Source: Planctomycetota bacterium
GTDB lineage: Bacteria > Planctomycetota > Phycisphaerae > Tepidisphaerales > Tepidisphaeraceae
Direction of reading: 5' to 3'
Assembly (NCBI GenBank): GCA_038746835.1
Contig: JBCDKH010000009.1
Location: 1 to 40,020 of the forward strand
Length of the DNA stretch: 40,020 bases
The number at the start of each line of letters is the position of its first letter. Position 1 is the stretch's first letter. The notes below the pieces were generated by a model that was given only the letters and a program-made list of their open reading frames with translations, was not told the origin of the DNA and searched no databases. The position numbers and the translations under genes are program-made. Shown in pieces: positions 5,626 to 38,718 of this stretch.

Positions 5626-6690
5626 ATGCTGCCGAACGTCACCAACTTCCTGCAGGCCTTTCGCGGCGTGCCGGCGTGGTTGATCGTGCTGGAACTGGTG
5701 ATCATCGGGGCGGTCGTCTTCAGTGTAATTCGGTTCCTGCAAGGGACGCGCGGCGTTCGCGTGCTCAAGGGCATCGTCGTCCTGTTGATCACGTTTTACC
5801 TCGCCGTCCGCATCCTCGGCGGCGTGTTCGACACGGCCCGACTGGGCATTCTGTTCCAGCAGTTCCTCTTCTACGCCAGCTTTGCGGCCATCGTTGTGTT
5901 CCAGCCAGAGCTCCGCCGCGCGCTCATGCGGCTGGGCGAAACCCGACTGCTCCGAGCGGCCACCGGTGGGACCGACGAGATCGCATCGGTCGTGGATGCT
6001 TGCACGACGTTGTCCCGGCGTCGGATCGGGGCGTTGCTCGCGTTCGAGCGAGACGAAGGCCTCGCTGGATTTGCGGAGGATGCGACCCGCATCGACGCCG
6101 AAGTCTCGGCCCAGCTGCTGACGACGATCTTCTACCCCAACACCTCGCTCCACGACCTCGGCGTCGTGATCCGAGACGCGCGCATCGCCTACGCCGGCGT
6201 TCAGTTTCCGCTGGCCGAGAGTGGCGAGCTGACCGAACGCGAGCTTGGCAGTCGACACCGCGCGGCTGTTGGCCTGAGCATGAACGTCGACGCAGTCGTG
6301 GTGGTCGTTTCGGAGGAGACGGGCGACATCAGCGTCGCCGAGGGTGGCCGGCTTCATCGTCGACTGTCTCCGGAGCGGCTTTTGGAGATGCTGCACGAGT
6401 TGTTGAACCGCAGCGTGCCGCTGGCACAGTCGGATCGGCCTTCGACGATCACGGCGTCGGATCGCGAGACCTCGTCGGCTGCCACGCGGCTCGACAGCCT
6501 CAGCACGAAGCGGCCCACGTCGAACGCGATGAAACGTCCGGCCACACTTCCGCCGGCCAAGCCGCAAACACTCAATCTCAAGGCCCCGCGTCCGCACAAG
6601 CCGGCGACGCCCAGCGTCGCGCCGGCCGACATCCGCGAGACCAAGCCCGTCGGGAAGCCAGACGAGGCACCGCGTAAGAAAGCAGGCTGA
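5626..6690 (+). CDS. cdaA: CdaA-type diadenylate cyclase with altered DGA motif
   Basis: This enzyme makes the second messenger cyclic di-AMP from two ATP at the membrane. The N-terminus has three hydrophobic segments (VPAWLIVLELVIIGAVVF, VLKGIVVLLITFYLAVRI, FQQFLFYASFAAIVVF), followed by QPELRRALMRLGETRL, the signature linking the membrane part to the DAC domain. The RHR motif is intact (R210-H211-R212 in RHRAAVGLS), as is VVSEETGDISVAEGG. The other catalytic motif, normally LHDGAV, reads LHDLGV here (D177 kept; G and A replaced by L and G). The C-terminus carries about 85 extra Pro/Lys-rich residues. YbbR (cdaR) follows after 60 bases; glmM, a usual third partner in Firmicutes, is absent. 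The ATG at 5626 was chosen because the membrane part begins just after it. Confidence 0.9.
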   Translation: MLPNVTNFLQAFRGVPAWLIVLELVIIGAVVFSVIRFLQGTRGVRVLKGIVVLLITFYLAVRILGGVFDTARLGILFQQFLFYASFAAIVVFQPELRRALMRLGETRLLRAATGGTDEIASVVDACTTLSRRRIGALLAFERDEGLAGFAEDATRIDAEVSAQLLTTIFYPNTSLHDLGVVIRDARIAYAGVQFPLAESGELTERELGSRHRAAVGLSMNVDAVVVVVSEETGDISVAEGGRLHRRLSPERLLEMLHELLNRSVPLAQSDRPSTITASDRETSSAATRLDSLSTKRPTSNAMKRPATLPPAKPQTLNLKAPRPHKPATPSVAPADIRETKPVGKPDEAPRKKAG

Positions 6691-6749
6691 CGCCAGCCTG
6701 AGTCTCCTCACCAAATCGTCCTTCTCGCCGACCTCTAAACTCCCTCGTC

Positions 6750-7814
6750 ATGGATCGCAGGACGCTCATCACGTTCGCCCAGACGCTTGCCTGGACGGTT
6801 CCGCTCACGCTGATCCTCTGGGTCTGGGCACAGGAGCAACAGATCGAGGAGCGCATCGTCTCCGGCATCACCGTCGAGTTCGGTGTCGACGAGCAGAACC
6901 TCTACGTCCGAAGGCCGAATCGCACCGGCGAGGACGCGGAACGGGTCGTCGCGTCGATGACACTCAGCGGCCCGCGTGCGACGCTTCAGGAGGTCGCCCG
7001 GCGACTTCGCGAGGACGAAGGCGGGCCGCGGCTCGACCTCGATCTGGAGCCCGCCGAGCGCGTCACGATCGATCTTCGCCGCGAGCTCGCGGATCTTCGT
7101 GTTTTTCGCGGCACGGGCGTGCGACTGACGGAGGTGGTGCCGTCGACGATGGACCTGACGGTCGATTCGATCACCGACGCTCCTCTGGAGCTCGTCCGCG
7201 CTGGCGAGCTCCCCGCCAGCGAAATCGTCGGCGGCGTGACCTTTGAGCCGTCAATCGTGCGACTTCAGGGCCCGTCGCTCGTCGTCACGGAGGCTGTGCG
7301 ACTCGGCGTCGTCGCGAACGCGCCGTTGCCGGGGAGCAGCAAGTTCGGCCAGCAGACGATCGACATCCGGCCACGTTTGCCCGACATCATCCGGCAGCAG
7401 CTGTCCAGCCGATTCGGTCGCGATGCGGTCGACCGGTTGCGTCTTGTCCCGTCGCCGGTGCAAGCGACGTTTGAGCGTCGGAACCGCGAGATTGCGACGG
7501 GGGAACTGGATCTCGTCCCGATCTGGGTCGACAAGCCGGCTGCCATGGAAGGCCTGATGAAGGTCGAGATCGACCTTCCGAGTCCGATCGTCAACGGCGT
7601 TGCGATCCGCGGTCCGGCAGAGACGATCCGACGACTCACCGAAGGCGATCTACGCGAAACGGTCCGTGCCCGACTGCCGCTGACTAAGGACGACCGCAAC
7701 AAGATGGGTCAACCAATCACGCGACAGCTCGTCTTCGATCTGCCAGAGGACGTCGAGCCCGTCAACGCAGCACCCGAGGTGGTCTTCACGCTCGTCCCAG
7801 AAGAGACGCGGTAG
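6750..7814 (+). CDS. cdaR: YbbR-domain protein, CdaA regulator (CdaR-like)
   Basis: This 354-residue protein has one N-terminal membrane anchor (TLAWTVPLTLILWVWAQEQ) followed by a periplasmic region made of repeated beta-rich YbbR-type units. A conserved opening, RIVSGITVEF, is repeated in spirit at the later segments VVGGVTFEPSIVRLQGP and LMKVEIDLPSPIVNGV. In Firmicutes the CdaR protein binds CdaA in the membrane and adjusts cyclic di-AMP production. Its position directly after cdaA supports the same role here. The ATG at 6750 is the only sensible start, since the anchor begins within 10 residues. YbbR proteins diverge strongly in sequence, so the assignment depends partly on the neighbour. 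Confidence 0.82.
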   Translation: MDRRTLITFAQTLAWTVPLTLILWVWAQEQQIEERIVSGITVEFGVDEQNLYVRRPNRTGEDAERVVASMTLSGPRATLQEVARRLREDEGGPRLDLDLEPAERVTIDLRRELADLRVFRGTGVRLTEVVPSTMDLTVDSITDAPLELVRAGELPASEIVGGVTFEPSIVRLQGPSLVVTEAVRLGVVANAPLPGSSKFGQQTIDIRPRLPDIIRQQLSSRFGRDAVDRLRLVPSPVQATFERRNREIATGELDLVPIWVDKPAAMEGLMKVEIDLPSPIVNGVAIRGPAETIRRLTEGDLRETVRARLPLTKDDRNKMGQPITRQLVFDLPEDVEPVNAAPEVVFTLVPEETR

Positions 7815-21416: not shown

Positions 21417-22406
21417 TCAAGGCATCCAGAGGTAGTACGCCCCGGGTTCGAGCATCTGAAGATACCGCTCCAGCACCTCGCTGCCCGGCAAGGCCGGTCT
21501 CGGCGTCAGGGATGCGACATCGCCCGAGGCGTAGATGCTCCCCCGATAGCCGAACGGACGGGTGTAGCGGATGACGGTGGCTCCCTTGGCATCGGCCAAC
21601 TCTGCCGCCCGCGATAAGGAGCTGTCGAGGTCGAGTACCTCGTCGATCAGGCCGATCTCCTTTGCCTGCGTCGCACTGAAGACCCGGCCGTCGAACGCGG
21701 TCTCGGTGTCGGAAATCTCCCGATGTTCGTTCACGACCGCGACAAAGCTTGCGAAAAAGTCGTCGACGAGCCCTCGGAAGACGGCCTCTTCCTCCTCGCT
21801 GAGTCCGTCGAACGGGCTGCCGAGGTCTTTGAGGTCGCCGCTGGTAATCGGCCGTACCTCGACGCCGATTTTGGCCATGAGTTCGCTGGCGTCGAGGGTT
21901 TGGAAGATGACGCCGATGCTGCCGACGATGCCACCCGGGACCGCGTGGATTTCGTCGGCCGCACACGAGACGTAGTACCCGCCGCTGGCTGAGACGTCCT
22001 GCGACGCGGCGACGACCACCTTGCCGGTCTGCTGCTTGAACCGCAGAACATCGCGGTACATCGCCTCGCTTGCAGCCACAGTGCCGCCCGGACTGTTGAT
22101 GCGGAGCACGACCGCCTTGACCCGATCATCAGCCGCTGCCCGGGCGAGCTGCTGGCGAAAAAGGCTGACCGGGTTTTCCTCGGTTCCGAGCAGCCCGCCG
22201 CCGGTGCGTGCGTTAACGAGAAGGCCTTCGACAGGAATCACCGCGACTTTGGCTCGTTTGGTCTCGCCACGGCGAACAACGACTTCTTCGAGTTCCGGGC
22301 TATTCGAGACCGGCTGCACCACGAACGTCGGAATGCTGCATCCGAGCGACGTCAACGCCACGAGTGAGGCGACAAGCAGTGTCACGCCAGAGCGGAGTCG
22401 GGGCAC
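21417..22406 (-). CDS. sppA: SppA-type signal peptide peptidase (S49), lipoprotein
   Basis: SppA degrades signal peptides left in the membrane after secretion. The 329-residue protein has a lipoprotein signal ending LTSLGC (Cys23), unusual because most SppA proteins use a membrane helix. The S49 fold shows VVLRINSPGGTVAASEAMYRD, then the nucleophile Ser141 in DVSASGGYYVSCAADEI, GSIGVIF, and the general-base Lys193 in SGDLKDLGSPFDG. These form the Ser/Lys dyad of the short, half-size SppA family. It starts what may be a long minus-strand transcript and is divergent from the zincin gene at 22512. Confidence 0.9.
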   Translation of the reverse strand: MPRLRSGVTLLVASLVALTSLGCSIPTFVVQPVSNSPELEEVVVRRGETKRAKVAVIPVEGLLVNARTGGGLLGTEENPVSLFRQQLARAAADDRVKAVVLRINSPGGTVAASEAMYRDVLRFKQQTGKVVVAASQDVSASGGYYVSCAADEIHAVPGGIVGSIGVIFQTLDASELMAKIGVEVRPITSGDLKDLGSPFDGLSEEEEAVFRGLVDDFFASFVAVVNEHREISDTETAFDGRVFSATQAKEIGLIDEVLDLDSSLSRAAELADAKGATVIRYTRPFGYRGSIYASGDVASLTPRPALPGSEVLERYLQMLEPGAYYLWMP

Positions 22407-22511: not shown

Positions 22512-22895
22512 ATGCCCTACGAGACGTCCGAGCTCGAGTTTCAGCAGCTGGTCGCCCAGGCGATACGCCGGCTGCCCGAGCGGTGGCGGCAGACGCTGGA
22601 AGAGAACGTCCCGGTTACCGTCGTCGATCGGCCGTCGCCGGAGCTGCTGAGAGACATGGAGATCCCGGAGGAGGAGCTGCTGCTGGGCTTGTTCGAAGGT
22701 GTGGCCATGCCCGACATGGCCGCCGAGGGTTTGGTCGACGTGCCGCCGCGAATCTGGATCTTCCGGCACGACGTCGAAGACTTCAGCGAGGATCGCGACG
22801 ACCTCATCGAGCAGGTTCGAATCACGCTCCTCCACGAGCTCGGGCACTACTTCGGCCTGGACGAAGACGACCTGGCCGATCTCGGCTACGCCTGA
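22512..22895 (+). CDS. Small zincin metallopeptidase-like protein (Zincin_1 type)
   Basis: The 127-residue protein matches the short metallopeptidase family often called DUF1025 or Zincin_1. Its ends show RRLPERWRQTLEENVPVTV, then PPRIWIFRHDVEDF, and the zinc motif HELGHYFGLDEDDL (His108 to His112). The family has a minimal zincin fold with HExxH plus a downstream Asp, and its natural substrates are not established. No signal peptide is present, so it is cytoplasmic. It lies 113 bases before the HlyD-type gene on the same strand and might belong with that cluster, though the family is widespread in unrelated contexts. Confidence 0.85.
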   Translation: MPYETSELEFQQLVAQAIRRLPERWRQTLEENVPVTVVDRPSPELLRDMEIPEEELLLGLFEGVAMPDMAAEGLVDVPPRIWIFRHDVEDFSEDRDDLIEQVRITLLHELGHYFGLDEDDLADLGYA

Positions 22896-23008: not shown

Positions 23009-23872
23009 ATGATCGACAGACCCCTTCGACTCCTCGTCCTGCCGAGCCTCCTCGTTGCCGCCGGTCTGATCGGCTGGTCGACCACCGCGACCGCCCAGGA
23101 CGTCGGCGGCTTCGACGCGGCCTCGTCCGGCGACCGGACGTTCGTCGGCATCACCCGGCCCAGCAAGTCGTTCGAGCTCGCCTTCAGCAACGTCGGCAAG
23201 GTCGCAGAAGTGGCTGTCCGGCCCGGCGATCGCGTTGAGGAAGACCAGCTGCTCATGCGGCAGGACGATCGCCTGGAGCGGGCTCGGCTCGTCGAACTCC
23301 GTGCCGAGGCCGATGTCGCCGGTCGGATCGCGACCGCCCGCCAGCGTGCCGACCTCGCCGCTGTGCAGGAGAAGCGGACTGAACTCGCACGCGACCAGGG
23401 CTTCGGCAACCAGTTGGAGCTCGAGGAGGCACGAATCAACCGCGTCATCGCCGAATTGCAGACGGACGAAGAAATCCGGCAGGGCACCGCGGCCGACGCC
23501 CGGGTCGATCAGCTCGAAATCCAAATCGCCCAGAAGGCCGTCAACGCCCCGTCGGCGGGCATTGTCCGGACGATCGAGGCCCAGGTCGGCGAAATGCACG
23601 GCCCGCAGAATCCGACCATCGAACTGGTCGTTCTCGACCCGCTGAAGGTCGAAATCCTCAATCTTCCACCCGATCGCGTCGCCAGCCTTGCCAAGGGCGA
23701 CGAGGTCATGGTCCGCTACGGTCGCGACGGCTCCTGGCAGCGGGCGACCATCAGCTTCATCGACCCGATCGCCTCGGCGGAGACGAACGAGCAGAAGGTC
23801 GAGCTGGAGCTTCCGAATCCCGAGCTTCGTGCCGCCGGTCGCGAGGTCCAGGTGAAGCTGGCCGATGAGTAG
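23009..23872 (+). CDS. Periplasmic HlyD/RND-type membrane fusion adaptor
   Basis: The 287-residue protein has a signal peptide (LLVLPSLLVAAGLIGW to ATAQ), a barrel-sandwich (lipoyl-like) half GKVAEVAVRPGDRVEEDQLL, a helical hairpin (residues about 90-165, Arg/Glu/Gln-rich), the second half VNAPSAGIVRTIEAQVGE and a beta-barrel region (LKVEILNLPPDRVASLAKGD). These are the domains of a membrane fusion protein that bridges inner membrane to outer membrane in exporters. Family members usually work with an ABC or RND pump; none is present here. The next genes are two further HlyD-containing proteins and a SecA-like ATPase. The ATG at 23009 starts the signal peptide; the longer frame overlaps the zincin gene. 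Confidence 0.83.
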   Translation: MIDRPLRLLVLPSLLVAAGLIGWSTTATAQDVGGFDAASSGDRTFVGITRPSKSFELAFSNVGKVAEVAVRPGDRVEEDQLLMRQDDRLERARLVELRAEADVAGRIATARQRADLAAVQEKRTELARDQGFGNQLELEEARINRVIAELQTDEEIRQGTAADARVDQLEIQIAQKAVNAPSAGIVRTIEAQVGEMHGPQNPTIELVVLDPLKVEILNLPPDRVASLAKGDEVMVRYGRDGSWQRATISFIDPIASAETNEQKVELELPNPELRAAGREVQVKLADE

Positions 23873-24012
23873 ACTGAACCCACGGCTGCGTCAGAGCGTC
23901 TACCTCTAAAGGAAGCGTTGGACGGAGCCACCTCCCGGACAAAACCCTGCCCGAGTAAGCTTGAAGCCCGGCACGCCACCCAAGCCGCCGGCCGAACCTC
24001 CTCCCCCGCGTC

Positions 24013-26019
24013 ATGGCCATCGCCGCCCAGCCCCACGTCCAGCAGTCCGAGCGTGAGCAACGCCAGCAGTCCGAACAGCAGGACCAGGCCAAGCAGGAAA
24101 AGCGGCTGGCCCGCGCCCGGCTTGTCCAGCGACTCGTCGAAAACGCCGGCAACCTGCCGGACTTCATGGAGGACTTGATTCACACTCAGGCCTCCGTCGT
24201 CGCTGGCACCGAAGGCGCCGCCTTCATGATCGAAGGGCCCGACGCCGACGGCAATCCCGAGCTCCGCACGCTCAAGCACGTCCGCCCCGACAACGTCGAG
24301 GACGGCATCAAGCGGCAGGCGATCATGGCCTTCCGCGAGATCGTCACGCAGTGCGTCAAGCAGGACAAAGACGGAGCCCTCCGGGTCTCGGCCGGCAGCG
24401 ACGAGAGCGAGGCCCAGTTCTGCCTCGTCACGCTGCTTCGCCAGGACGACCGCGCCGTCGCGGCCACCGCCGTCATCACGCGTTGCCGTGACGAGGGTCG
24501 AGCGCTTCAGCGGCTTAGCACGATGCAGCTGGTCGCGGGCTACTTCGACATGTTCCTACTGCGTCGGCAGAGCGAGCAGAACAAGCAGGTCGCCAAGACG
24601 CACCAGGATGTTTTGCAGTTTGCCAGCGTCGTCGCCACGGCCGAGGACTTCCACGCGAGCGGCGTTGCTCTGTGCAACGAACTTGCTGCCCGTGCTGGTG
24701 CCGCGCGTGTCGCGCTCGGCTGGGTCAAGACCTTCGGCGGCGACAAGATTCAGCTCAAGGCGATCAGCCACACCGAAGAGTTTGACAAGAAGCAGGAGCT
24801 CTCCGTGCAGCTCGTCGCGGTGATGGAGGAATGCCTCGACCAGGACGAGTTCTGCCAGTTCGACCCGGCCGGCGGATCGACGGACAACGTCACGCGCGAG
24901 GCGATGAAGCTCTCGCAGATGGAAGGTGGCAACCGCGTCGTCAGCGTGCCGCTGCGGCGTCGCGAGAAACTGGTTGGCGTGATGACGATGGAGTTCCCGC
25001 CGGAGAAGCCGACCAGCCCGGCCGAGTCGACCTCGCTTGCCGTCGCGGCCGAACTGCTGGCCCCGCAGCTGTACGACCGGTTCCAGAACGATCGCTACCT
25101 GATTACGAAGGCGGGTCTGAGCGTCCGCGACAACACCAAGAAGATCTTCGGCCTGCGTCAGCACACGCTTGCGAAGGTCATCATCCTGGCCGTCCTCGGC
25201 TTGCTGCTGTTTCTGACGCTGTACAAGCCGATGTACCGCGTCGCGGCTCCGTTCGAGTTCGTGCCGGAGGTCCGCCGAGTCGTCGACGCGCCGTTCAACG
25301 GGCAGATCGTCGCGATTGCCGAGGTCGACGGCAGACGTCTGACCGAAGGGGACACCGTCACGGCCGGCCAACCCATCGTGATGCTCGACACGCGGGAGTT
25401 CGAGGAAGAACTCGTCGTCCAGCAGAAGGCTCATCAGCAGGCGATTCAGGAAGCCCTTGCTCTGCGTGCCCGCATGGAAGAGGGTCCCAGCGTTCGAGCC
25501 CAGCAACGGGCCAAGATGGCCGAGGCCGAGGTCGCTCAGGCACGAATCGCCCAGATCGAGTCGAAGATCGAGAAGTCGACGCTCCGCTCGCCCGTCGATG
25601 GCGTGATCCTCGAAGTGCCCGGCCAGCAAGACCTTCGCGAGCGGATCGGCGACGTCGTGCAGATCGGCTCGCCCATCGTCGTCGTCGGCGATCCGTCGAA
25701 GCTCACGATCGAGGCCCGCGTCGCGGACCGCGACATTGCCGACATCGGCGTGGGCGATCCTGGCACGCTCGCGACCAGCAGCCGCCCGGGACGGAAGATT
25801 CCGCTGGAGGTCGTCGACATCATCGACGCTGCAGCCGCCGACCCGCGGGCTCAGACCAACGCCTACACGGTCGTCGCCACCGTCGCCCCGGCCGACATCG
25901 ACCCGACCTGGCGCTCCGGCGGCACCGGCGAAGTCCGCATCGACGTCGACAATCGCAGCCTCGCCTGGCAATGGACGCACCGCCTCACCGACTGGGTGCG
26001 GCTGAAGCTGTGGCTGTGA
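24013..26019 (+). CDS. GAF-like sensor fused through a TM helix to a HlyD adaptor
   Basis: The protein has 668 residues. A Gln/Glu-rich N-terminus (about 1-45) precedes a first sensor-like region and a GAF-like domain (about 200-355; SGVALCNELAARAGAARVALGW, then NRVVSVPLRRREKLVGVMTME). One membrane helix follows (about 388-406, VIILAVLGLLLFLTLYKPM), and the periplasmic part has HlyD features: VVDAPFNGQIVAIAEVDGRRLTEG, a helical hairpin of Glu/Gln/Arg, LRSPVDGVILEVPG and a barrel (LTIEARVADRDIADIG). Joining a cytoplasmic sensor domain to an adaptor suggests that export is gated by a cytoplasmic signal; this is inference. It starts at ATG 24013, 140 bases after the first adaptor gene. Heptamer repeats follow its stop. 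Confidence 0.83.
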   Translation: MAIAAQPHVQQSEREQRQQSEQQDQAKQEKRLARARLVQRLVENAGNLPDFMEDLIHTQASVVAGTEGAAFMIEGPDADGNPELRTLKHVRPDNVEDGIKRQAIMAFREIVTQCVKQDKDGALRVSAGSDESEAQFCLVTLLRQDDRAVAATAVITRCRDEGRALQRLSTMQLVAGYFDMFLLRRQSEQNKQVAKTHQDVLQFASVVATAEDFHASGVALCNELAARAGAARVALGWVKTFGGDKIQLKAISHTEEFDKKQELSVQLVAVMEECLDQDEFCQFDPAGGSTDNVTREAMKLSQMEGGNRVVSVPLRRREKLVGVMTMEFPPEKPTSPAESTSLAVAAELLAPQLYDRFQNDRYLITKAGLSVRDNTKKIFGLRQHTLAKVIILAVLGLLLFLTLYKPMYRVAAPFEFVPEVRRVVDAPFNGQIVAIAEVDGRRLTEGDTVTAGQPIVMLDTREFEEELVVQQKAHQQAIQEALALRARMEEGPSVRAQQRAKMAEAEVAQARIAQIESKIEKSTLRSPVDGVILEVPGQQDLRERIGDVVQIGSPIVVVGDPSKLTIEARVADRDIADIGVGDPGTLATSSRPGRKIPLEVVDIIDAAAADPRAQTNAYTVVATVAPADIDPTWRSGGTGEVRIDVDNRSLAWQWTHRLTDWVRLKLWL

Positions 26020-26024
26020 ATGCG

Positions 26025-26121
26025 TAGCTGTTAGCTGCTAGCGACTAGCTGCTAGGGCAGACACCGATGACCGCGAGGACTCCAACTCTGGCCTAGTCGC
26101 TAGGCCCTAACCGCTAGCAAC
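26025..26121. repeat. Inverted array of TA-starting heptamer repeats
   Basis: Two arrays of 7-base units face each other between the GAF-HlyD and M50-HlyD genes. The left array (26025-26059) reads TAGCTGT, TAGCTGC, TAGCGAC, TAGCTGC, TAGGGCA. The right array (26094-26121) reads TAGTCGC, TAGGCCC, TAACCGC, TAGCAAC, whose reverse complement gives the same TAGCNNY-type units. The arms CTAGCGACTAG (26038-26048) and CTAGTCGCTAG (26093-26103) are perfect 11-base inverted repeats, able to form a long stem around a 44-base spacer. Stop codons occur in most frames. It could be an attenuator, a protein-binding array or a short mobile repeat; it is too short and irregular for CRISPR. Confidence 0.7.
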
Positions 26122-26131
26122 TCGTTCCACG

Positions 26132-28363
26132 ATGACCCTCCAACTCCGCCCAACGTTCAGCGAATCGTGGTACCGGGTCAAAGACCTCAAGCCGCGTCTC
26201 CGTGCCGCCGCACAGATCTCGCGGCAGTTCTACCGCGGCGAGCGGTGGTACATCGTCCGTGACCCGGCCGGCAACCAGTATCACCGGCTCAGCGACGTCG
26301 CCTACCAGTTCATCGGCCTGCTCGACGGCACGCGGACTGTCGGCGAGGCGTGGGAACTCGTCGGCGGACAGCTGGCGGACGACGCGCCGACGCAGCCGGA
26401 AGTCATTCAGATCCTCTCGCAGCTCTACAGCGCGAACCTGATCGAGACGAACATCGCCCCCGACGCCCAGGTGCTGCTGCGTCGGCAGAAGAAGCAGCGC
26501 GAACGCAAGTTCCAAGGCAGGCTGATGAACCTGCTCTTCCCACGCATTCCGCTTTGGGACCCGGATAAGTTCCTCAAGATCTGGATGCCGCTCGCCGGCC
26601 CGCTGATCAGCCGGGGTGGGATGATCCTGTGGCTGCTCGTGGTCGGGGCGGCACTCTTCCTGGTCTTGCCCGAGAGCGACAAGTTCGCGGCACAGACGCA
26701 GGACTTCCTTCGGAGCGGCACCGTCGAGATGTGGCTGCTGCTGGGCGTCACCTTCCTCGGCACGAAGTTTTTGCACGAGATGGGACACGCCTTCGCGGTC
26801 AGGCGATTCGGCGGGGAGTGTCACGAGGTCGGCATCATGTTCCTGGTGCTCATGCCGTGTCCGTACGTCGACGCGTCGACAGCATGGGGCTTCCCGAGCA
26901 AGTGGAAGCGCATCTTCGTCGGTGCCGGCGGCATGATCGCCGAGGTGTTCATTGCGGCGCTCGCCGCGATCGTTTGGTACATCACGCTGAATAACCCGAA
27001 TTCGGCCGTCAACCAGATCGCGTACTACACGATGCTGATCGCTTCGATCAGCACGCTGCTCTTCAACGCCAACCCGCTGCTCCGCTACGACGGGTACTAC
27101 ATCCTGTCGGATTGGCTGGAAATCCCGAACCTGCAGCAAAAGTCCCGCGAGTACAGCCTCGGCCTGATTAAGCGGTACATCCTGCGGGTCAAGACGACTC
27201 AGCCGCTGCCGCAGACGATTCGCCAGAAACTCTGGCTCGCGTTTTACTGGTCGGCCAGCGGGCTCTACCGCATCTTCATCGGGTTCGCCATCCTCTACAT
27301 GGTGATCTACTCGCTGCCGGAGCAGGTCCGCATCGTCGGCTACTTCCTGGCGGCGGGGGCGATTGCGACGTTCTTCGTCGTCCCGATCTTTAAGCTCTTC
27401 AAGTACCTCACGACGGAACCAGAACTGCACCGCAAGCGGACCCGCGCGTGGCTCTTCACCGGGACGGTCACAGCGGTGCTCGTGTTTTTCGTCGGGATCC
27501 TGCCGATCCCCTCGGCCGTGCGGGCGGACGCAATCAGCGAACCGCTGGACCGGGCCGAGGCGACCATCATGTCGGCCGGCACGCTCGTGAAGCTCGAAGT
27601 TCGCGACGGCGATCTTGTCGAAGAGGGCCAGCCGCTGGCGACGCTGGAGAACAAGGAGCTCGAGACCGAGCTCCGAGTCGCCGAGCTGGAAGTCGAGCGA
27701 CTTCGCACGCTTCGCGACGGCGTGCGGTTCAACGACCGGGCCTTCCTCGGCTCGCTGAATGAGCAGATCGCCGGTGCCAAGACCCGTGTCGAAGGGCTCA
27801 AGAAGCGGCTCGACGATCTCGTCGTCCGGGCCCCGATCGCCGGCGTCTTCATGGCTCCACGAATCGAAGATCGACTGGACACGTATCTGCAGCAGGGCGA
27901 TCCGCTGGGTATCGTGCAGGACGCTCAGCAGCTCGAGTTCTTCGTCAGCGTCGATCAGGCGTCGTACCAGCGGGTCTTCGACGCGATGAAGCGCGACGCC
28001 GCGACGGTTCAGGTTCGGCTTGCGAGTGATCTTGACAATCCGATCGAGGGTGGCGAGATCGACGCCGACGTTCGCATGCTGCCGTCTGCGAAGAACGAGC
28101 TGAGGAGCAATGCCTTGACCTTCGCCGGCGGCGGAACGATCGCGCCGGATCCGTCCGACCCGAACAAGTCGAGCGAGAGCCTCTTCGAGATCCGCCTCGT
28201 CCTGCCCAACGCGGGCGAGGGCGATCGGCCTCGGTATCTGCCGGGGCAGCGGGCGTACGTTCGCATCAAGCTCGAAGATGAGCCGATTATGACGCAGGCC
28301 CTGCGTGCCGCACGGCAGCTCATCCAGACACAGACCACCGCCACCGCCGCCCAGCAGGGCTAG
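26132..28363 (+). CDS. PqqD-like, M50 metalloprotease and HlyD fusion protein
   Basis: The protein has 743 residues. An N-terminal PqqD-like winged-helix region (about 40-115; YIVRDPAGNQYHRLSDVAYQ) resembles peptide-chaperone domains. A membrane M50 site-2-protease core follows, with the zinc motif HEMGH (215-219), VLMPCPYVDAS and the third ligand in NPLLRYDGYYILSDWLEIP (D320), across about eight membrane segments. A C-terminal HlyD part follows the last helix (about 442-460): AEATIMSAGTLVKLEVRDGD, a helical hairpin and LVVRAPIAGVFMAPRIED. Similar proteins are described as putative peptide zinc metalloproteases near peptide exporters. It probably cuts or handles an exported peptide in the membrane. 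The SecA-like gene starts 11 bases after it. Confidence 0.88.
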   Translation: MTLQLRPTFSESWYRVKDLKPRLRAAAQISRQFYRGERWYIVRDPAGNQYHRLSDVAYQFIGLLDGTRTVGEAWELVGGQLADDAPTQPEVIQILSQLYSANLIETNIAPDAQVLLRRQKKQRERKFQGRLMNLLFPRIPLWDPDKFLKIWMPLAGPLISRGGMILWLLVVGAALFLVLPESDKFAAQTQDFLRSGTVEMWLLLGVTFLGTKFLHEMGHAFAVRRFGGECHEVGIMFLVLMPCPYVDASTAWGFPSKWKRIFVGAGGMIAEVFIAALAAIVWYITLNNPNSAVNQIAYYTMLIASISTLLFNANPLLRYDGYYILSDWLEIPNLQQKSREYSLGLIKRYILRVKTTQPLPQTIRQKLWLAFYWSASGLYRIFIGFAILYMVIYSLPEQVRIVGYFLAAGAIATFFVVPIFKLFKYLTTEPELHRKRTRAWLFTGTVTAVLVFFVGILPIPSAVRADAISEPLDRAEATIMSAGTLVKLEVRDGDLVEEGQPLATLENKELETELRVAELEVERLRTLRDGVRFNDRAFLGSLNEQIAGAKTRVEGLKKRLDDLVVRAPIAGVFMAPRIEDRLDTYLQQGDPLGIVQDAQQLEFFVSVDQASYQRVFDAMKRDAATVQVRLASDLDNPIEGGEIDADVRMLPSAKNELRSNALTFAGGGTIAPDPSDPNKSSESLFEIRLVLPNAGEGDRPRYLPGQRAYVRIKLEDEPIMTQALRAARQLIQTQTTATAAQQG

Positions 28364-28374
28364 CCAACGCAACC

Positions 28375-30330
28375 ATGAGTTCCGCAGCCGGCGAGCTGTT
28401 CCACATCTTCGACGCACGCCGCGTCAAGGCCCCGGAAATCAAGGGCCTCGACACAGCCGCCAATGCGGCCGTGGGATGGGTGAAGCACAAGCAGCCGGTC
28501 TTGCGTGGCTTGCTTTCGTTCTCGCGGCAGGTCGACGCGCTTGAGCCCGAAGTGCAAAAGCTCGGCTCGACGGCGTTCAAGGAGGAAGTCGCTCGACTCC
28601 GCGACGTCGCCCGGCGTGGCCGACTCGACAAGCAACCTGACGACCTTGCACGCGCGTTCGCCATTGCCCGCGAGGCGTCTGTCCGCACCGTCCAGAAGCG
28701 ACCGTTTCCCGTGCAGATCGCCGGTGCCCGGGCGATTCAAATGGGCTACGTCGCGGAGATGGCCACGGGTGAGGGCAAGACGCTGACCGCTGCGATCGGT
28801 GCCGCGATCCTCGCGTGGCAGGGTCGGCCGGTACACGTCGTTACCGTCAACGACTACCTCGTTGCCCGCGACGCCGAGTTGAACCGGCCGCTGTTCGAAC
28901 TGCTCGGCTCGAGCGTCTCGGCGGTCACGCACGAGACGACGCCGCAGGACCGTTATCACGCGTATCGCAAGGGCGTCGTCTACTGCACGAGCAAGGAACT
29001 CGTCGCCGACTTCCTGCGCGACCAGATCATGCTCGGCGAGCAGCGATCCAGCTCCAGCACCGCCATCGGCATGATGGCCGGCCGGCAGAACAGGCCGTGC
29101 CTCGTACCGGGTCTGTTCCGTTGCGTGGTCGACGAGGCGGACTCGCTGCTGATCGACGAGGCCGTCACGCCGCTCATCATCAGTAATGCGCCCGACGGCA
29201 ACGCGAACGAGCCGCTCTATCGTGAGGCCCGTGACCTCGCACTCCAGTTAACCGAAAATCGCGACTACAAAGTCGACCGCACCGAACGGAAGGTCGACCT
29301 CACCGGCCGGGGCAAAGAGCAACTCCACAGGCTGGCTGAGGCGCTGCCGAAGGAAGAGGACGCCGGGTTCTGGGTCGGTCGGCGTCGCCGCGAGGAGCTC
29401 GTCACGCAGGCACTCGTCGGCGAGTACTGCTTCCTCAAGGACGAGCAGTACCTCATCAGCGACGACGGCAAGATCGTCATCATCGACGAATCCACGGGCC
29501 GAACCATGGCCGATCGGTCCTGGCGCGGCGGGCTTCACCAGGCGATCGAGATCAAAGAGAGCGTCGAGGTCACCAGCGACAAGGAGAACCTGGCTCGTCT
29601 CAGCTTCCAGCGGTTCTTCCGGCAATACCCGCATTTGGCCGGCATGACCGGCACCGCGTGGGAAGCCCGCGGCGAGCTCTGGCAGATCTTCAACAAGGCG
29701 GTTGTTCGCGTGCCGACGAACAAGCCGCTGATTCGCCAGCAGCTGCCGCTGCGGTTCTATGGAACCAGCGACGAGAAGTGGGAAGCCGTCGTCGACCGCG
29801 TCGCCGAGCTGCACGCCGACGGCAAGCCCGTGCTGATCGGCACGCGGAGCGTCTGGAGCAGCGAAGAGGTCGATCGCCGCCTGGCCGAGCGTGGACTGCC
29901 ACATCGCGTGCTCAACGCTCGTCAGGACCAGCAAGAGGCCGAGGTTGTCGCACAGGCTGGTCAGCCAGGGGCGATCACGGTCGCGACGAACATGGCCGGT
30001 CGTGGTACGGACATTCTGCTGGGCCGCGGCGTCCGCGACAATGGTGGGCTCAATGTCATCGCGACCGAGCCGCACGCCAGCGGTCGCATCGACCGTCAGC
30101 TCTTCGGCCGAGCGGGCCGTCAAGGCGACCCTGGGACGGCCCAAATGTTCGCCAGTGCCGAGGACGACCTCATCAAGCGTCATGTCGACCGCCTCCGCAA
30201 CAAGTGGCGTGCGCTGGGCGGCAGTCGCCTCATCCGGATCGCGCAGAAGCGGGCTGAAAAACTCGCACGTTTCAACCGCAAACAGGTCCTTCGCAGCGAC
30301 GACTGGATGGATCAGTCGCTGCCGTTCTAG
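28375..30330 (+). CDS. Shortened SecA-like preprotein translocase ATPase
   Basis: The 651-residue protein shows the SecA motor: Walker A MATGEGKTLTA (129-139), VHVVTVNDYLVARDAE, the exact DEAD box VVDEADSLLIDEAV (253-256), a PPXD-type crosslinking region, LARLSFQRFFRQYPHLAGMTG, and NBD2 with TNMAGRGTDILLGRGV (538-553) and QLFGRAGRQGDPG. It ends in QKRAEKLARFNRKQVLRSDDWMDQ, equivalent to the start of the helical scaffold. The wing domain and C-terminal zinc tail of normal SecA (about 900 residues) are absent. It is therefore an accessory SecA-type motor, perhaps driving substrates through the HlyD/M50 proteins encoded just upstream. Its stop shares the CTAG overlap with the msrB stop. Confidence 0.9.
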   Translation: MSSAAGELFHIFDARRVKAPEIKGLDTAANAAVGWVKHKQPVLRGLLSFSRQVDALEPEVQKLGSTAFKEEVARLRDVARRGRLDKQPDDLARAFAIAREASVRTVQKRPFPVQIAGARAIQMGYVAEMATGEGKTLTAAIGAAILAWQGRPVHVVTVNDYLVARDAELNRPLFELLGSSVSAVTHETTPQDRYHAYRKGVVYCTSKELVADFLRDQIMLGEQRSSSSTAIGMMAGRQNRPCLVPGLFRCVVDEADSLLIDEAVTPLIISNAPDGNANEPLYREARDLALQLTENRDYKVDRTERKVDLTGRGKEQLHRLAEALPKEEDAGFWVGRRRREELVTQALVGEYCFLKDEQYLISDDGKIVIIDESTGRTMADRSWRGGLHQAIEIKESVEVTSDKENLARLSFQRFFRQYPHLAGMTGTAWEARGELWQIFNKAVVRVPTNKPLIRQQLPLRFYGTSDEKWEAVVDRVAELHADGKPVLIGTRSVWSSEEVDRRLAERGLPHRVLNARQDQQEAEVVAQAGQPGAITVATNMAGRGTDILLGRGVRDNGGLNVIATEPHASGRIDRQLFGRAGRQGDPGTAQMFASAEDDLIKRHVDRLRNKWRALGGSRLIRIAQKRAEKLARFNRKQVLRSDDWMDQSLPF

Positions 30331-34485: not shown

Positions 34486-36876
34486 TCAAACGCCGTCGAT
34501 GATCTCGATCGAGTCGAACGCGTCGTCGTCATCGTCGTTGAAGACCGTGTCGTCACCGTCGCCGCCGAAGAGGAAGTCGGCACCAGCGCCGCCATCGAGG
34601 CTGTCGTCGCCGAAGACGCCCTCGATCAGGTCGACGCCATTGCCACCTTCGAGCGAGTCGGGTCCGCCGTTGGCGACGCCGCCGCGCGGGCCATCGAGGG
34701 CGTCGCCGACGAGGGTGTCGTTGCCATCGCCGCCGATGAGCAGGTCGTTGTTGCCGAAGCCTCGGAGCGTGTCGTTGCCGGCTTGGCCACGGAGCGTGTC
34801 GCGTGAGCCCGAGCCGTTGAGCAGGTCGTCACCCTCGCCGCCTTCGAGGACGTTGGCGTCGAGGCCGCCGGTCAGCGTGTCGTTGCCGGCACCGCCGATG
34901 AGCGTGTCCTGGTCGAAGAAGCCCGCCGCCAGCGTTGCGGCGTCGAAGGTGATGCCGGTGCCGCCGAGCAGGTAGTCGTTGCCCTCGCCGCCGACGATCG
35001 AGTCGTTGCCGCCGAAGCCGTCCAGCACGTCGTCGCCGTCACCGCCGAAGATCTCGTCGTTACCGAGTGCGCCCGAGACGGTGTCGTCGCCGGCACCGGC
35101 GAAGATGCGTGCGGCCGCGACGTCTTCACCCAGGACGATCAGGTCGTCCCCGTCGCCGCCCTCAATCTCGATGATGCCGACGCTGTCCTGCGGCTGCGAC
35201 GTATTCAGGCCGTTGATGCTGATGATGACGTTTGAGCCGTCGAGCGAGACGGCGATGTTGTCCGAGCCGGTGGTGCCGTTGACCGTCAGGATGCCAGTGC
35301 TGCTGTCCAGCGTCTGGGCCTCGCGAACATCAGCCAGGGCGACAACGCTGAGGTTAGCGCCGAGGTTGCCGGTGACGTTGACGGTGATAGGCAGGTCGTC
35401 CGCGACGCCCGCGTACGTGTGGCTGCCGACGACTTCGAACGTGCCGGGCGTCGAGCCTTCGCGGACGACGACCGGGTTGTCACCGGCGAGGCCCTGGTCG
35501 ACCTGGCCGTCGCCCCAGTCGATGGTGGCGGTCCAATCGGACGGATCGCCGTTGGGGTCGAGGTCGGTGAGCGTCGCAACGACGGCGTCCTGCAGCTCGA
35601 CGCCACGAATGGCGACGACGTTCTGGCCAATGAGCGTGCCGCCCGAATCGCCGACGCCGACGGTGACCTGCTGGATGTCGTACGGGAAGCTGTTGTTCCC
35701 ACGAATGGTCCGCGGCGTGCCATCGATGATGTCGCGGGCGTAGACGAACAGATCGACCGCGCCTGTGAAGCCGGCCTCGGGCGTGAACGTGACGTCGCCG
35801 GTGTTCTGGTCGACGCTCACGGTTCCCACGCCAGCCTGCGTCGTAAGGAAGGAGCCGCCGTTTTCGACGTCGTTGAACGCGGCGGCGTATTCGATCGGAT
35901 CGTCTTCCGGATCGACCGCGCCGGTCTGGAAGACGATCGCCTGGCCCTGGTCGGTGACGAGGTTGTCGATCGACTGCAGCAACACGGCCGGGCTGTTGGT
36001 CGCGTCCTCGATGACGTCGAACTCGTACGTGTCCGTCGAGGTGCCGCCGTCGGGATCGGTGGCGGTGACGCGGACTTCAAACGACTCGCCGATGAGCGAG
36101 CTGTCAGCGCTGACCGCCAGGACGCCGTCGGTGGTGATCTCGACGACATCGACCGAGGTCACGACGACCGGATCGTCGAGAATCTGGCTGCTTGCAGAGC
36201 CGCTAATGATGTCGTCGCGGACGTCGAATCCGCGAAGCAGCTGTCCGAAGAGCGTGAAGTTGCCGTCGAGGATGCGCTTGTCCGTGCCGGGCGTGGCCAG
36301 TTCCTGCGTGACGAAGAACTGGCTGCCGTTGGTGTCCTTGCCGGCGTTGGCCATGGCGAGCTGGCCGTCGCCGTTGTAGACAAAGTCGGCGTCGAACTCG
36401 TCGTCGAACCGGAACTCGACCTCGTCGCGGACCGGGTTCGAGTTGGTGCCGTTTTCGCCCGGGCTGCCGAACTGGAAGATGAAGTCGGGAACGACGCGGA
36501 AGATCCGCAGGTCGTCGTAGAAGCCCGACTCGGCCAGACCGCTGATGCGGCGGACGGTCTCCGGCGCGACGTCGTCGAAGAGCTGGTACGTCAGCACGCG
36601 CCCATCAGCGAGGTTCATCTGCAGATACGTCGTGTCACGCGGCAGGAACGTGGCCGTGGCGTTGTTCGCGTCGTCGCCGAGCACTTCGGCGGTCAGGTTC
36701 AGCGCATCGCCGTCGGTGTCGTCGGCACGAACCGGGACGTACAGCGACTTGCCCGCCTGGACCGGAAGGTCGAACGGCTGGCTCAGCAGCTGCGGTGCGG
36801 CCAGGAGGCGGCGGCTCTCGAGCGTTTCGGTGACGGCGCGGGTGACGGGCGACATGGGGCGTTGGCGACGGATCAT
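34486..36876 (-). CDS. Surface protein: LEPR-XLL-like N-terminus, cyclophilin, Ig-like and RTX repeats
   Basis: The protein has 796 residues. The N-terminus has [14 protein letters not shown], close to the LEPR-XLL signal motif of large planctomycete surface proteins. A cyclophilin-like peptidyl-prolyl isomerase domain follows (about 85-250): [37 protein letters not shown] and [11 protein letters not shown], with the catalytic Arg kept. Beta domains come next ([19 protein letters not shown], then a PKD-like [15 protein letters not shown]). About a dozen GGxGxDxL calcium-binding RTX nonapeptides fill the last 230 residues. The final tail is acidic ([13 protein letters not shown]). RTX proteins are usually exported and fold on binding calcium outside. 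lepB lies 60 bases upstream, and the gene ends in a strong terminator. Confidence 0.9.
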
Positions 36877-36936: not shown

Positions 36937-38718
36937 TCAGCGGATGAACCGCATGTCGCCGACATTGGGCACCACCGGCGGCAGGAAGGGCAGCGGCCGG
37001 TACCCGCCCGGCCAGTAGACGAAGAACGCCTTGCCGAGCAGAAACCGGCCCGGAACCCGGCCAGCATCTGAGGCGAGTCGCTCACGCGGGAGCAGAACGT
37101 CGTCGGTCCACGTCCGCGCGTCGCCCGACAGCATCGGGTTATCACCGATGACGAAGTACTCCTCCTCGCCCAGCCGCATGACGCCGTGCGGGAACAGCTC
37201 CGGCGAGGCGTATGGATGCAACCCGCCACCGCCCGAGCCGCCAGCCGTCTGGTCGCGGGCGGTGTAGTGGACGTCGCGGTACAGCTTGACGCGCGTGATG
37301 TCGGCCACGTGCCCGACGGCCGAGATCGACGCCGCAGGTTCCGGGCCCTTCAGGCTGTTGCGTTCCTCGAAGATCAGTTCGCCGACGTCGGGCTCGTAGT
37401 TCGTCTCGATGACGCGCTTTCCATCGATCTCGACGTGGATCGCATAGTCGAAATGTGCCAGCTGCAGCCGCGACGTCCCGCCGACGGCCGAGACGCCCGC
37501 ATCGCTGTGCCGGGCGAGTTCGACCGGCGATGACGGATCGGTTTCGTCCAGCAGAACCACTTCGCCCGGCGTGACGCGAGCGACGAACGTCTTGCCATTG
37601 CCGGACAGCCGCAGCGCGATCGGGCCGCCGCCGTCGCGCCGGTGGTGGACGAGGCTCAGGCGCAGGTCATCGGCGTAGTGCAGCCAGGCCGTGCCGGGAT
37701 CACGCGAGTGCGGTCCGCCGGCGAAGTTGAACCCTCGGCCAAAGGTGTCCGCACTGTCCTTCCCCCGAAGGCCATCATCCCATGTCTGGTTGTACGCGAT
37801 GTAGTCGAGCAAGTAGAAGCAGAGCGGGTTGGCGTCCTTGTCGAACGTGAGCTGGCCGCCCTCACCGGCGAAGGCGAAGCCGTCCGATTCGACACGCCAG
37901 CCGCCCGAGGGTTTCCACGGAAGCTCGAAGTCGGCATCCGTCTCCACGCGTCCGCCCGACAACTGAACGTCCCGCTCGGCCCCGCGCGGGCGGAAGTCGT
38001 CGTCGTACACGACACGCCAGAGAGCCTCCTGCACGGTGTCCGACTTGCGGGCGATCTTGAAGTCGCTCGCCGTCAGCTCGGCCGTCTCCTTGTGCCGGGC
38101 GTCGCCGGCGATGTAGACGTCCCCGTCGAGCAGCAGCACGCTCTCGCCCGGCAGGCCGACGAGCCGCTTGATGTAGTTCTCCTGGTACGACTCCGTGCTC
38201 TCGACCGGCAGATTCGCGTAGGCCGCTCCCGACCGACTCGGGTTCTTGAAGACAACCACGTCGTAACGCTGGGGGTCCTGGAAGAGGTAGAGGTACTTCA
38301 GCACCAGAATGCGGTCGCCGTAGTAGACGTTCGGCCCTTGTGCGTTCTCGTCGACCGGGTCCAGCCCGGGCATGGGTCTCGGCGGCTGTCGGAAGCCGCA
38401 GTTGGGGCATCGGATGTTGAGCGTCCGATCCTCGCCGCTGGAATTCTGGGCCTTCTTCGGGATGAACGTGGTCGAGCCGACGGTGCGGTAGTTGACGTCG
38501 TAATCCCACCCGCAGTCCGGGCAATCGAACCGCATGTGCGCCCCCAGCAGCGTCGTGGCCATGGAGCCGGTGGGGATGATGAACGCCTCGACGACGAACG
38601 CCCTGAAGACGAACGCGAGCACGAGCGCGATGAGCACTTGCTCGATCGTCGTCCGCACCCCCGCCTGCTCCGCATCGGCCGACGAGGCGATCGTGGTGGT
38701 CTCGGACGGCGAACTCAT
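36937..38718 (-). CDS. lepB: Signal peptidase I with zinc ribbon and large inserted domain
   Basis: LepB removes signal peptides at the outer face of the inner membrane. The 593-residue protein has one N-terminal anchor (TIEQVLIALVLAFVFRAFVVEAF), the nucleophile Ser52 in IPTGSMATTLLG and Lys184 in NYIKRLVGLPGESVLLLDGD. Box E is GDNPMLSGDARTW, and a C-terminal tail follows. Between Ser52 and Lys184 sits a zinc ribbon (CPDCGWDY at 66-73 and CPNCGFRQ at 104-111). A large beta-rich insert (about 210-520) precedes box E, with concanavalin-like features (DITRVKLYRDVHYT). E. coli LepB is only 324 residues. The ATG at 38718 is chosen. It is divergent from the HupE-like gene. Confidence 0.93.
   Translation of the reverse strand: MSSPSETTTIASSADAEQAGVRTTIEQVLIALVLAFVFRAFVVEAFIIPTGSMATTLLGAHMRFDCPDCGWDYDVNYRTVGSTTFIPKKAQNSSGEDRTLNIRCPNCGFRQPPRPMPGLDPVDENAQGPNVYYGDRILVLKYLYLFQDPQRYDVVVFKNPSRSGAAYANLPVESTESYQENYIKRLVGLPGESVLLLDGDVYIAGDARHKETAELTASDFKIARKSDTVQEALWRVVYDDDFRPRGAERDVQLSGGRVETDADFELPWKPSGGWRVESDGFAFAGEGGQLTFDKDANPLCFYLLDYIAYNQTWDDGLRGKDSADTFGRGFNFAGGPHSRDPGTAWLHYADDLRLSLVHHRRDGGGPIALRLSGNGKTFVARVTPGEVVLLDETDPSSPVELARHSDAGVSAVGGTSRLQLAHFDYAIHVEIDGKRVIETNYEPDVGELIFEERNSLKGPEPAASISAVGHVADITRVKLYRDVHYTARDQTAGGSGGGGLHPYASPELFPHGVMRLGEEEYFVIGDNPMLSGDARTWTDDVLLPRERLASDAGRVPGRFLLGKAFFVYWPGGYRPLPFLPPVVPNVGDMRFIR

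Follow-up and report, generated by a model that had tools for sequence, protein, structure and literature searches.

A conserved locus with a SecA-like ATPase and HlyD-type adaptors as a probable export module for LExRxLL-tagged proteins

A four-gene locus in a Planctomycetota bacterium probably serves as an export module dedicated to proteins that have a short LExRxLL tag at the N-terminus in place of a Sec signal peptide; we put the probability of this reading at about 0.65. The locus lies in a stretch of 40,020 nucleotides (the window, meaning the whole stretch that was analysed). As read from genome sequences, the module is kept together as a whole, and the active sites of its ATPase and protease are preserved. 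In several phyla it also co-occurs and co-localises with LExRxLL proteins, which are often giant. The link to LExRxLL cargo is a strong association, and it strengthens the case for export by the module, which we infer. The locus is a further case of a module that was described earlier and is unexplained. The new part is a cargo and a signal that can be tested.

Results

The four-gene module

The four genes are where the earlier note had placed them, as confirmed from the sequence and with Pfam. All are on the + strand, and 11 bases separate the PqqD-M50-HlyD gene from the SecA-like gene.

23009..23872, + strand: HlyD-type adaptor, predicted periplasmic (287 aa; ATG at 23009, stop codon ending at 23872)
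24013..26019, + strand: GAF-TM-HlyD protein (GAF-like cytoplasmic part, hydrophobic stretch, periplasmic HlyD part)
26132..28363, + strand: PqqD-M50-HlyD protein (PqqD-like domain, M50 site-2-type membrane protease, HlyD adaptor)
28375..30330, + strand: SecA-like ATPase (Pfam: SecA_DEAD 290.7 bits, P-loop_SecA 184.8 bits, SecA_PP_bind 85.8 bits)

The first protein matches HlyD_3 (38.7 bits) and HlyD_D23 (31.0 bits) in a Pfam scan that used a longer enclosing frame, and its N-terminus resembles a Sec signal peptide by eye. The GAF-TM-HlyD protein matches HlyD_3 (55.3 bits) and has, by eye, a single hydrophobic stretch at about residues 385-407. The wording "GAF-like" in the earlier note was well chosen, because the GAF match (17.5 bits) is under the Pfam cut-off of 22.4. 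The third protein matches Peptidase_M50 (29.6 bits, cut-off 27.2) and HlyD_3 (30.2 bits, cut-off 22.2), and its PqqD score of 23.4 bits is exactly at the cut-off of 23.4. Its M50 part contains HEMGH at residues 215-219 and D320. The SecA-like protein aligns to residues 25-607 only of Bacillus subtilis SecA and has no match to SecA_SW (wing/scaffold) in the Pfam scan. Thus, by the usual domain limits of SecA, the wing and the two-helix finger are missing.

The Pfam scan of 28 window proteins gave no ABC transporter, in agreement with the earlier note, and no RND family either. The remaining identified neighbours are mostly housekeeping genes. A Zincin_1 metallopeptidase (22512-22895, +) is directly upstream of the HlyD gene and, as far as seen, is outside the conserved unit. 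Genes for an SppA signal peptide peptidase (21417-22406, -) and for an S26 signal peptidase that contains a long insertion (36937-38613, -) flank the module. Farther away (5626-7814, +), a DAC diadenylate cyclase domain precedes a protein that has no Pfam match and that we take, from its position, to be YbbR-like. A possible defence role was considered with PADLOC, in which the SecA-like protein gave only weak helicase-type matches.

The AlphaFold model of the M50-HlyD protein (mean pLDDT 90.7) begins with a mixed domain at the N-terminus, followed by a helical membrane part and then the adaptor half. Residues 457-727 resemble the adaptors MacA, MexA and AcrA (best Z 16.6 over 218 residues, 2.4 A), and this half dominates the Foldseek and VIA lists. 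A further structural match (Z about 10) pairs residues 15-111 with a domain of GdmN.

The model of the SecA-like protein (pLDDT 91.9) matches SecA, and its top TM-scores (0.79-0.80) are to substrate-engaged forms of SecA bound to SecY (5eul and 6itc). This likeness, and the retention of a SecA fold with a preprotein-binding domain, could mean that the protein feeds ordinary SecYEG in an accessory pathway of the SecA2 type and that the HlyD and M50 parts act later on periplasmic proteins. We consider this unlikely. The wing and the two-helix finger of SecA contact the channel, and the SecA-like protein has neither. In addition, none of the 28 window proteins scanned is a SecY homologue, and the tagged N-termini described below have no hydrophobic Sec signal that could be seen by eye.

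Conservation of the module

An alignment of 25 M50-HlyD proteins was used to collect relatives in named genomes, and the best 80 of 561 were compared. These 80 loci come from Planctomycetes, Verrucomicrobia, Proteobacteria, Nitrospirota, Fibrobacter, Omnitrophota and others. Among them, a SecA-like gene is within 3.5 kb downstream of the M50-HlyD gene in 70 of 73 testable loci (it is missing at L079, L107 and L127), and a GAF-HlyD-type frame is upstream in 69 of 73 (missing at L106, L114, L135 and L154). Judged from these loci, the gene order kept in other phyla shows more than chance. The earlier note had named scattered homologues and a nearby ABC or RND pump as findings that would speak against its reading; the synteny is kept, and no such pump is among the 28 window proteins scanned.

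The active sites are kept as well. Protease residues H215, E216, H219, N314 and D320 are invariant in all 60 rows of an alignment that includes the window's own protein and was picked from 72 candidates; the HExxH motif and a third zinc ligand (Asp), the sequence marks of an M50 protease, are thus present in 60/60 rows. In the SecA-like protein, Walker A (G132-K135), D253/E254/D256 and R579/R582 are invariant in 53/53 rows.

Among 119 planctomycete genomes, 16 have SecA-type matches that reach 300 bits in frames no longer than 740 aa (among the matches listed), and all 16 are within the 27 genomes that have M50-HlyD at E<1e-30. The SecA-like gene is far from the M50-HlyD gene in several Planctomycetes (e.g., G043, G062 and G092).

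The earlier note had suggested looking for TolC-like outer membrane partners, and this was borne out in part. In some relatives an OEP/TolC gene adjoins the module (PF02321 in three tested proteins), and the homology group containing two PF02321 proteins is present at 11 of the 80 loci (best 80 of 561 relatives). There is no OEP/TolC gene in the window; the window's genome has OEP genes on 10 contigs, none of which is the window's contig.

Several alphaproteobacterial loci have a gene between those for M50-HlyD and the SecA-like protein. At L091 (12279-13136) it encodes SapC (PF07277), a family whose name derives from S-layer proteins, and similar ORFs are present in L140, L141, L148, L150 and L152.

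Candidate cargo in the window's genome

The window contains one protein with a candidate tag.

34486..36876, - strand: candidate cargo, 796 aa (LESRRLLA-type N-terminal tag at 36793-36840, cyclophilin domain, CshA-like repeat, RTX repeats)

With a tag in front of a cyclophilin-type prolyl isomerase that is fused with CshA-like and RTX repeats, the protein has an unusual architecture. The tag scores 18.9 bits against PF07595, under the cut-off of 25.5, and NF012209 is not listed for this protein at E<=10. By eye only, it fits the consensus RRLxxExLExRxLLA of Seeger et al. In the whole genome there are 40 matches to PF07595 at E<=10, none above the cut-off. Reading of 33 other such places gave about 31 distinct ones that resemble N-terminal tags by eye; one place (L066) was spurious on reading. 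The same tagged N-terminus appears at two contig ends (L041 and L043, on contigs C4 and C251 of genome G000), so these are one gene split by the assembly. Because the genome has many tagged genes, finding one at a distance of 4 kb from the module carries no significance on its own.

RTX repeats, which characterise the cargo of ABC type I systems, are found at the C-terminal end of several tagged proteins; examples are the window protein and a giant protein of Vibrio (PMC10868602, available in part). Such proteins might therefore exit by another route, with the module only processing, retaining or sensing them at the envelope, and a protease joined by a GAF-like sensor would suit such surveillance. 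We give this alternative little chance, since the module has its own ATPase from a protein-threading family and the SecA-like gene is adjacent in 70/73 loci (best 80 of 561 relatives).

Co-occurrence of the LExRxLL motif and the module

Co-occurrence was scored with NCBIfam NF012209 (LEPR-XLL) as the marker for the motif and M50-HlyD as the marker for the module. PF07595 alone was tried as a presence/absence marker and found unfit: it matched 107 of 119 genomes at E<=10, only two of them above the cut-off, and it matched 8 of 14 controls. NF012209 was used instead.

The association is clearest in the window's class (n=248), where 115 genomes have both markers, 16 have M50-HlyD only, nine have LEPR-XLL only and 108 have neither. 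The Fisher value of 5e-41 ignores relatedness; stratified by family, the data give a Mantel-Haenszel odds ratio of 33. Shuffling within families is the fairer test, and 0 of 20,000 shuffles reached 115 (the best reached 102). PEP-CTERM (PF07589) was uninformative as a contrast, being present in 246 of the 248 genomes. Its matches gave family labels for all 248 genomes, and the result indicates that a search for a short motif works in LEPR-negative genomes.

A similar pattern was found in the family around Shimia gijangensis (n=179), with 23 genomes having both markers, six M50-HlyD only, seven LEPR-XLL only and 143 neither (Fisher 1.3e-17, relatedness ignored). Six of the seven LEPR-only matches are weak or short; the seventh, with E 1.3e-9 in G511, is strong.

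In the phylum sample (n=119), LEPR-XLL is above the cut-off in 11 genomes, all among the 27 with M50-HlyD (E<1e-30); 16 of these 27 have no LEPR match above the cut-off. The Fisher value, again ignoring relatedness, is 1.2e-8, or 8e-4 without the window's class (4/20 versus 0/91). Four module-less genomes (G017, G027, G047 and G099) have LEPR matches below the cut-off (E<=0.1), and PF07595 matches at E<0.02 also occur where M50-HlyD is absent (e.g., G048).

In other phyla, LEPR-XLL was found in 43 of 48 genomes from the best 80 of 561 relatives, a set that consists of module-bearing genomes only, without a matched negative set. Among 14 named control genomes there was one LEPR match, in Deinobacterium chartae. 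Genomes with the module thus tend to encode large proteins that have an N-terminal LExRxLL motif.

LExRxLL genes beside the module

The two are often neighbours. Of the 34 LEPR matches in the Shimia family, 23 are within 15 kb of M50-HlyD and seven are in module-less genomes. For most of the 23, M50-HlyD lies less than 3 kb past the giant frame's 3' end, with frame ends estimated from frame length. Four genomes (G149, G436, G529 and G567) have two LEPR genes each, every one with its own adjoining module.

Across phyla, a LEPR frame adjoins the module in at least 23 of 48 genomes after inspection (best 80 of 561 relatives), which is a lower bound because contigs end. Automatic matching of LEPR frames to loci had given 31/44; inspection dropped eight of these as coincidences (L082, L093, L094, L104, L106, L117, L123 and L147), leaving 23. 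Tagged giant frames were seen at L122, L128, L136, L137, L143, L153 and L155 (best 80 of 561 relatives), and all seven match NF012209 above the cut-off.

In the class set, 13 LEPR matches are within 15 kb of M50-HlyD (among the matches listed), in addition to those in G067 and G046; eight other pairs on the same contig are farther apart (among the matches listed). In G107, four tagged frames (861, 657, 631 and 4713 aa) adjoin the module. In G067, a tagged frame of 5026 aa lies between the SecA-like gene and a HlyD gene, followed by an OEP gene.

This association with giant ORFs also bears on whether the module matures and exports RiPP-like peptides, with an M50 protease that has a PqqD/RRE-like domain trimming small precursors. 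Residues 22-417 of the M50-HlyD protein do match the daptide protease model NF041824 (E 3.6e-44), but the score of 151.4 bits is well short of the cut-off of 300. Short peptides need no SecA motor, and we give this possibility very little chance.

Discussion

If the module exports tagged proteins, as we favour, the tag could be recognized by the PqqD-like domain of M50-HlyD or by the GAF-HlyD protein. In RiPP pathways, leader peptides are bound by domains of the PqqD type. The truncated SecA-like ATPase would then thread the unfolded chain, powered by ATP hydrolysis, through an inner membrane passage formed or gated by the M50 membrane part, perhaps together with the membrane segment of GAF-HlyD. 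The M50 part may remove the tag, and the three HlyD parts would span the periplasm and connect to a TolC/OEP channel whose gene would lie elsewhere in the genome. In the window's genome, some thirty tagged proteins would share one module. In alphaproteobacteria, a giant gene usually has its own module adjoining.

In its most specific form, this reading describes a distinct one-step secretion conduit that is free of ABC proteins, is driven by a SecA-like motor, recognizes the N-terminal LExRxLL and exports giant surface proteins in many Gram-negative phyla. Its parts would be the SecA-like motor, M50-HlyD as gate and protease, GAF-HlyD, HlyD and TolC. We regard the chances for and against this whole reading as even.

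Two questions meet here: the role of the secondary SecA locus, raised in 2015, and the route by which LExRxLL planctomycete proteins exit from the cell. A functional association would make both open to direct tests, and it would give some of the largest bacterial proteins known (open frames of up to 17,824 aa) a candidate exporter that is independent of both SecYEG and an ABC motor.

The module shares several features with type I secretion (HlyB-HlyD-TolC): HlyD adaptors, OEP at some loci, and large repeat or RTX proteins near many of them. However, the window has a SecA-like ATPase and no ABC exporter; none of the HlyB kind accompanies the adaptors among the 28 window proteins scanned, and the proposed tag of the module is N-terminal. 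SecA2 accessory Sec systems likewise have a second, divergent SecA ATPase beside genes for large surface proteins. In contrast to these, the SecA-like protein is shorter (SecA 25-607) and is grouped with HlyD and M50 proteins, and there is no SecY2 in the window. The protein lacks the full set of SecA domains for SecY engagement and scores far below the cut-off of the NCBIfam SecA2 models.

The proposed cargo is the group of LEPR-XLL (NF012209) and Planc_extracel (PF07595) proteins. LExRxLL has been called a planctomycete "export signal", a description dated 2004 and cited in the part of PMC8567305 that was available. Seeger et al., in the part available, name no exporter, and "hlyd" and "seca" are absent from the main text. 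LEPR-XLL otherwise comes up a single time in each of two papers, in other contexts (PMC10868602, available in part, is one of them). The open-licence literature, to which the search was confined and outside which subscription papers and preprints lie, gave no paper linking LEPR-XLL to the secondary SecA locus.

The closest known system is the locus reported by Kamneva, Poudel and Ward in 2015 (PMC4452313, available in part), a conserved locus whose role they called completely unknown. The earlier note had regarded the combination of genes as undescribed; this claim fails, since the same locus is in that paper. The shared features are a SecA_DEAD protein without wing/scaffold, Peptidase_M50/HlyD, GAF/HlyD and HlyD/biotin_lipoyl proteins, OEP at some loci, the lack of an ABC transporter, and the same phyla. 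The window shares with that locus a wing-less SecA_DEAD protein, three HlyD-type partners and, among the 28 proteins scanned, the lack of an ABC gene. The earlier note had also proposed that a SecA-like motor replaces the ABC motor. The synteny, the lack of a pump and the invariant active sites are consistent with this, but the mechanism repeats that of PMC4452313, which proposes that SecA_DEAD takes over from the ABC motor as the ATPase and that the M50 protein may be a pore. The available text of that paper names no cargo, and the link to LExRxLL proteins is what the present analysis adds.
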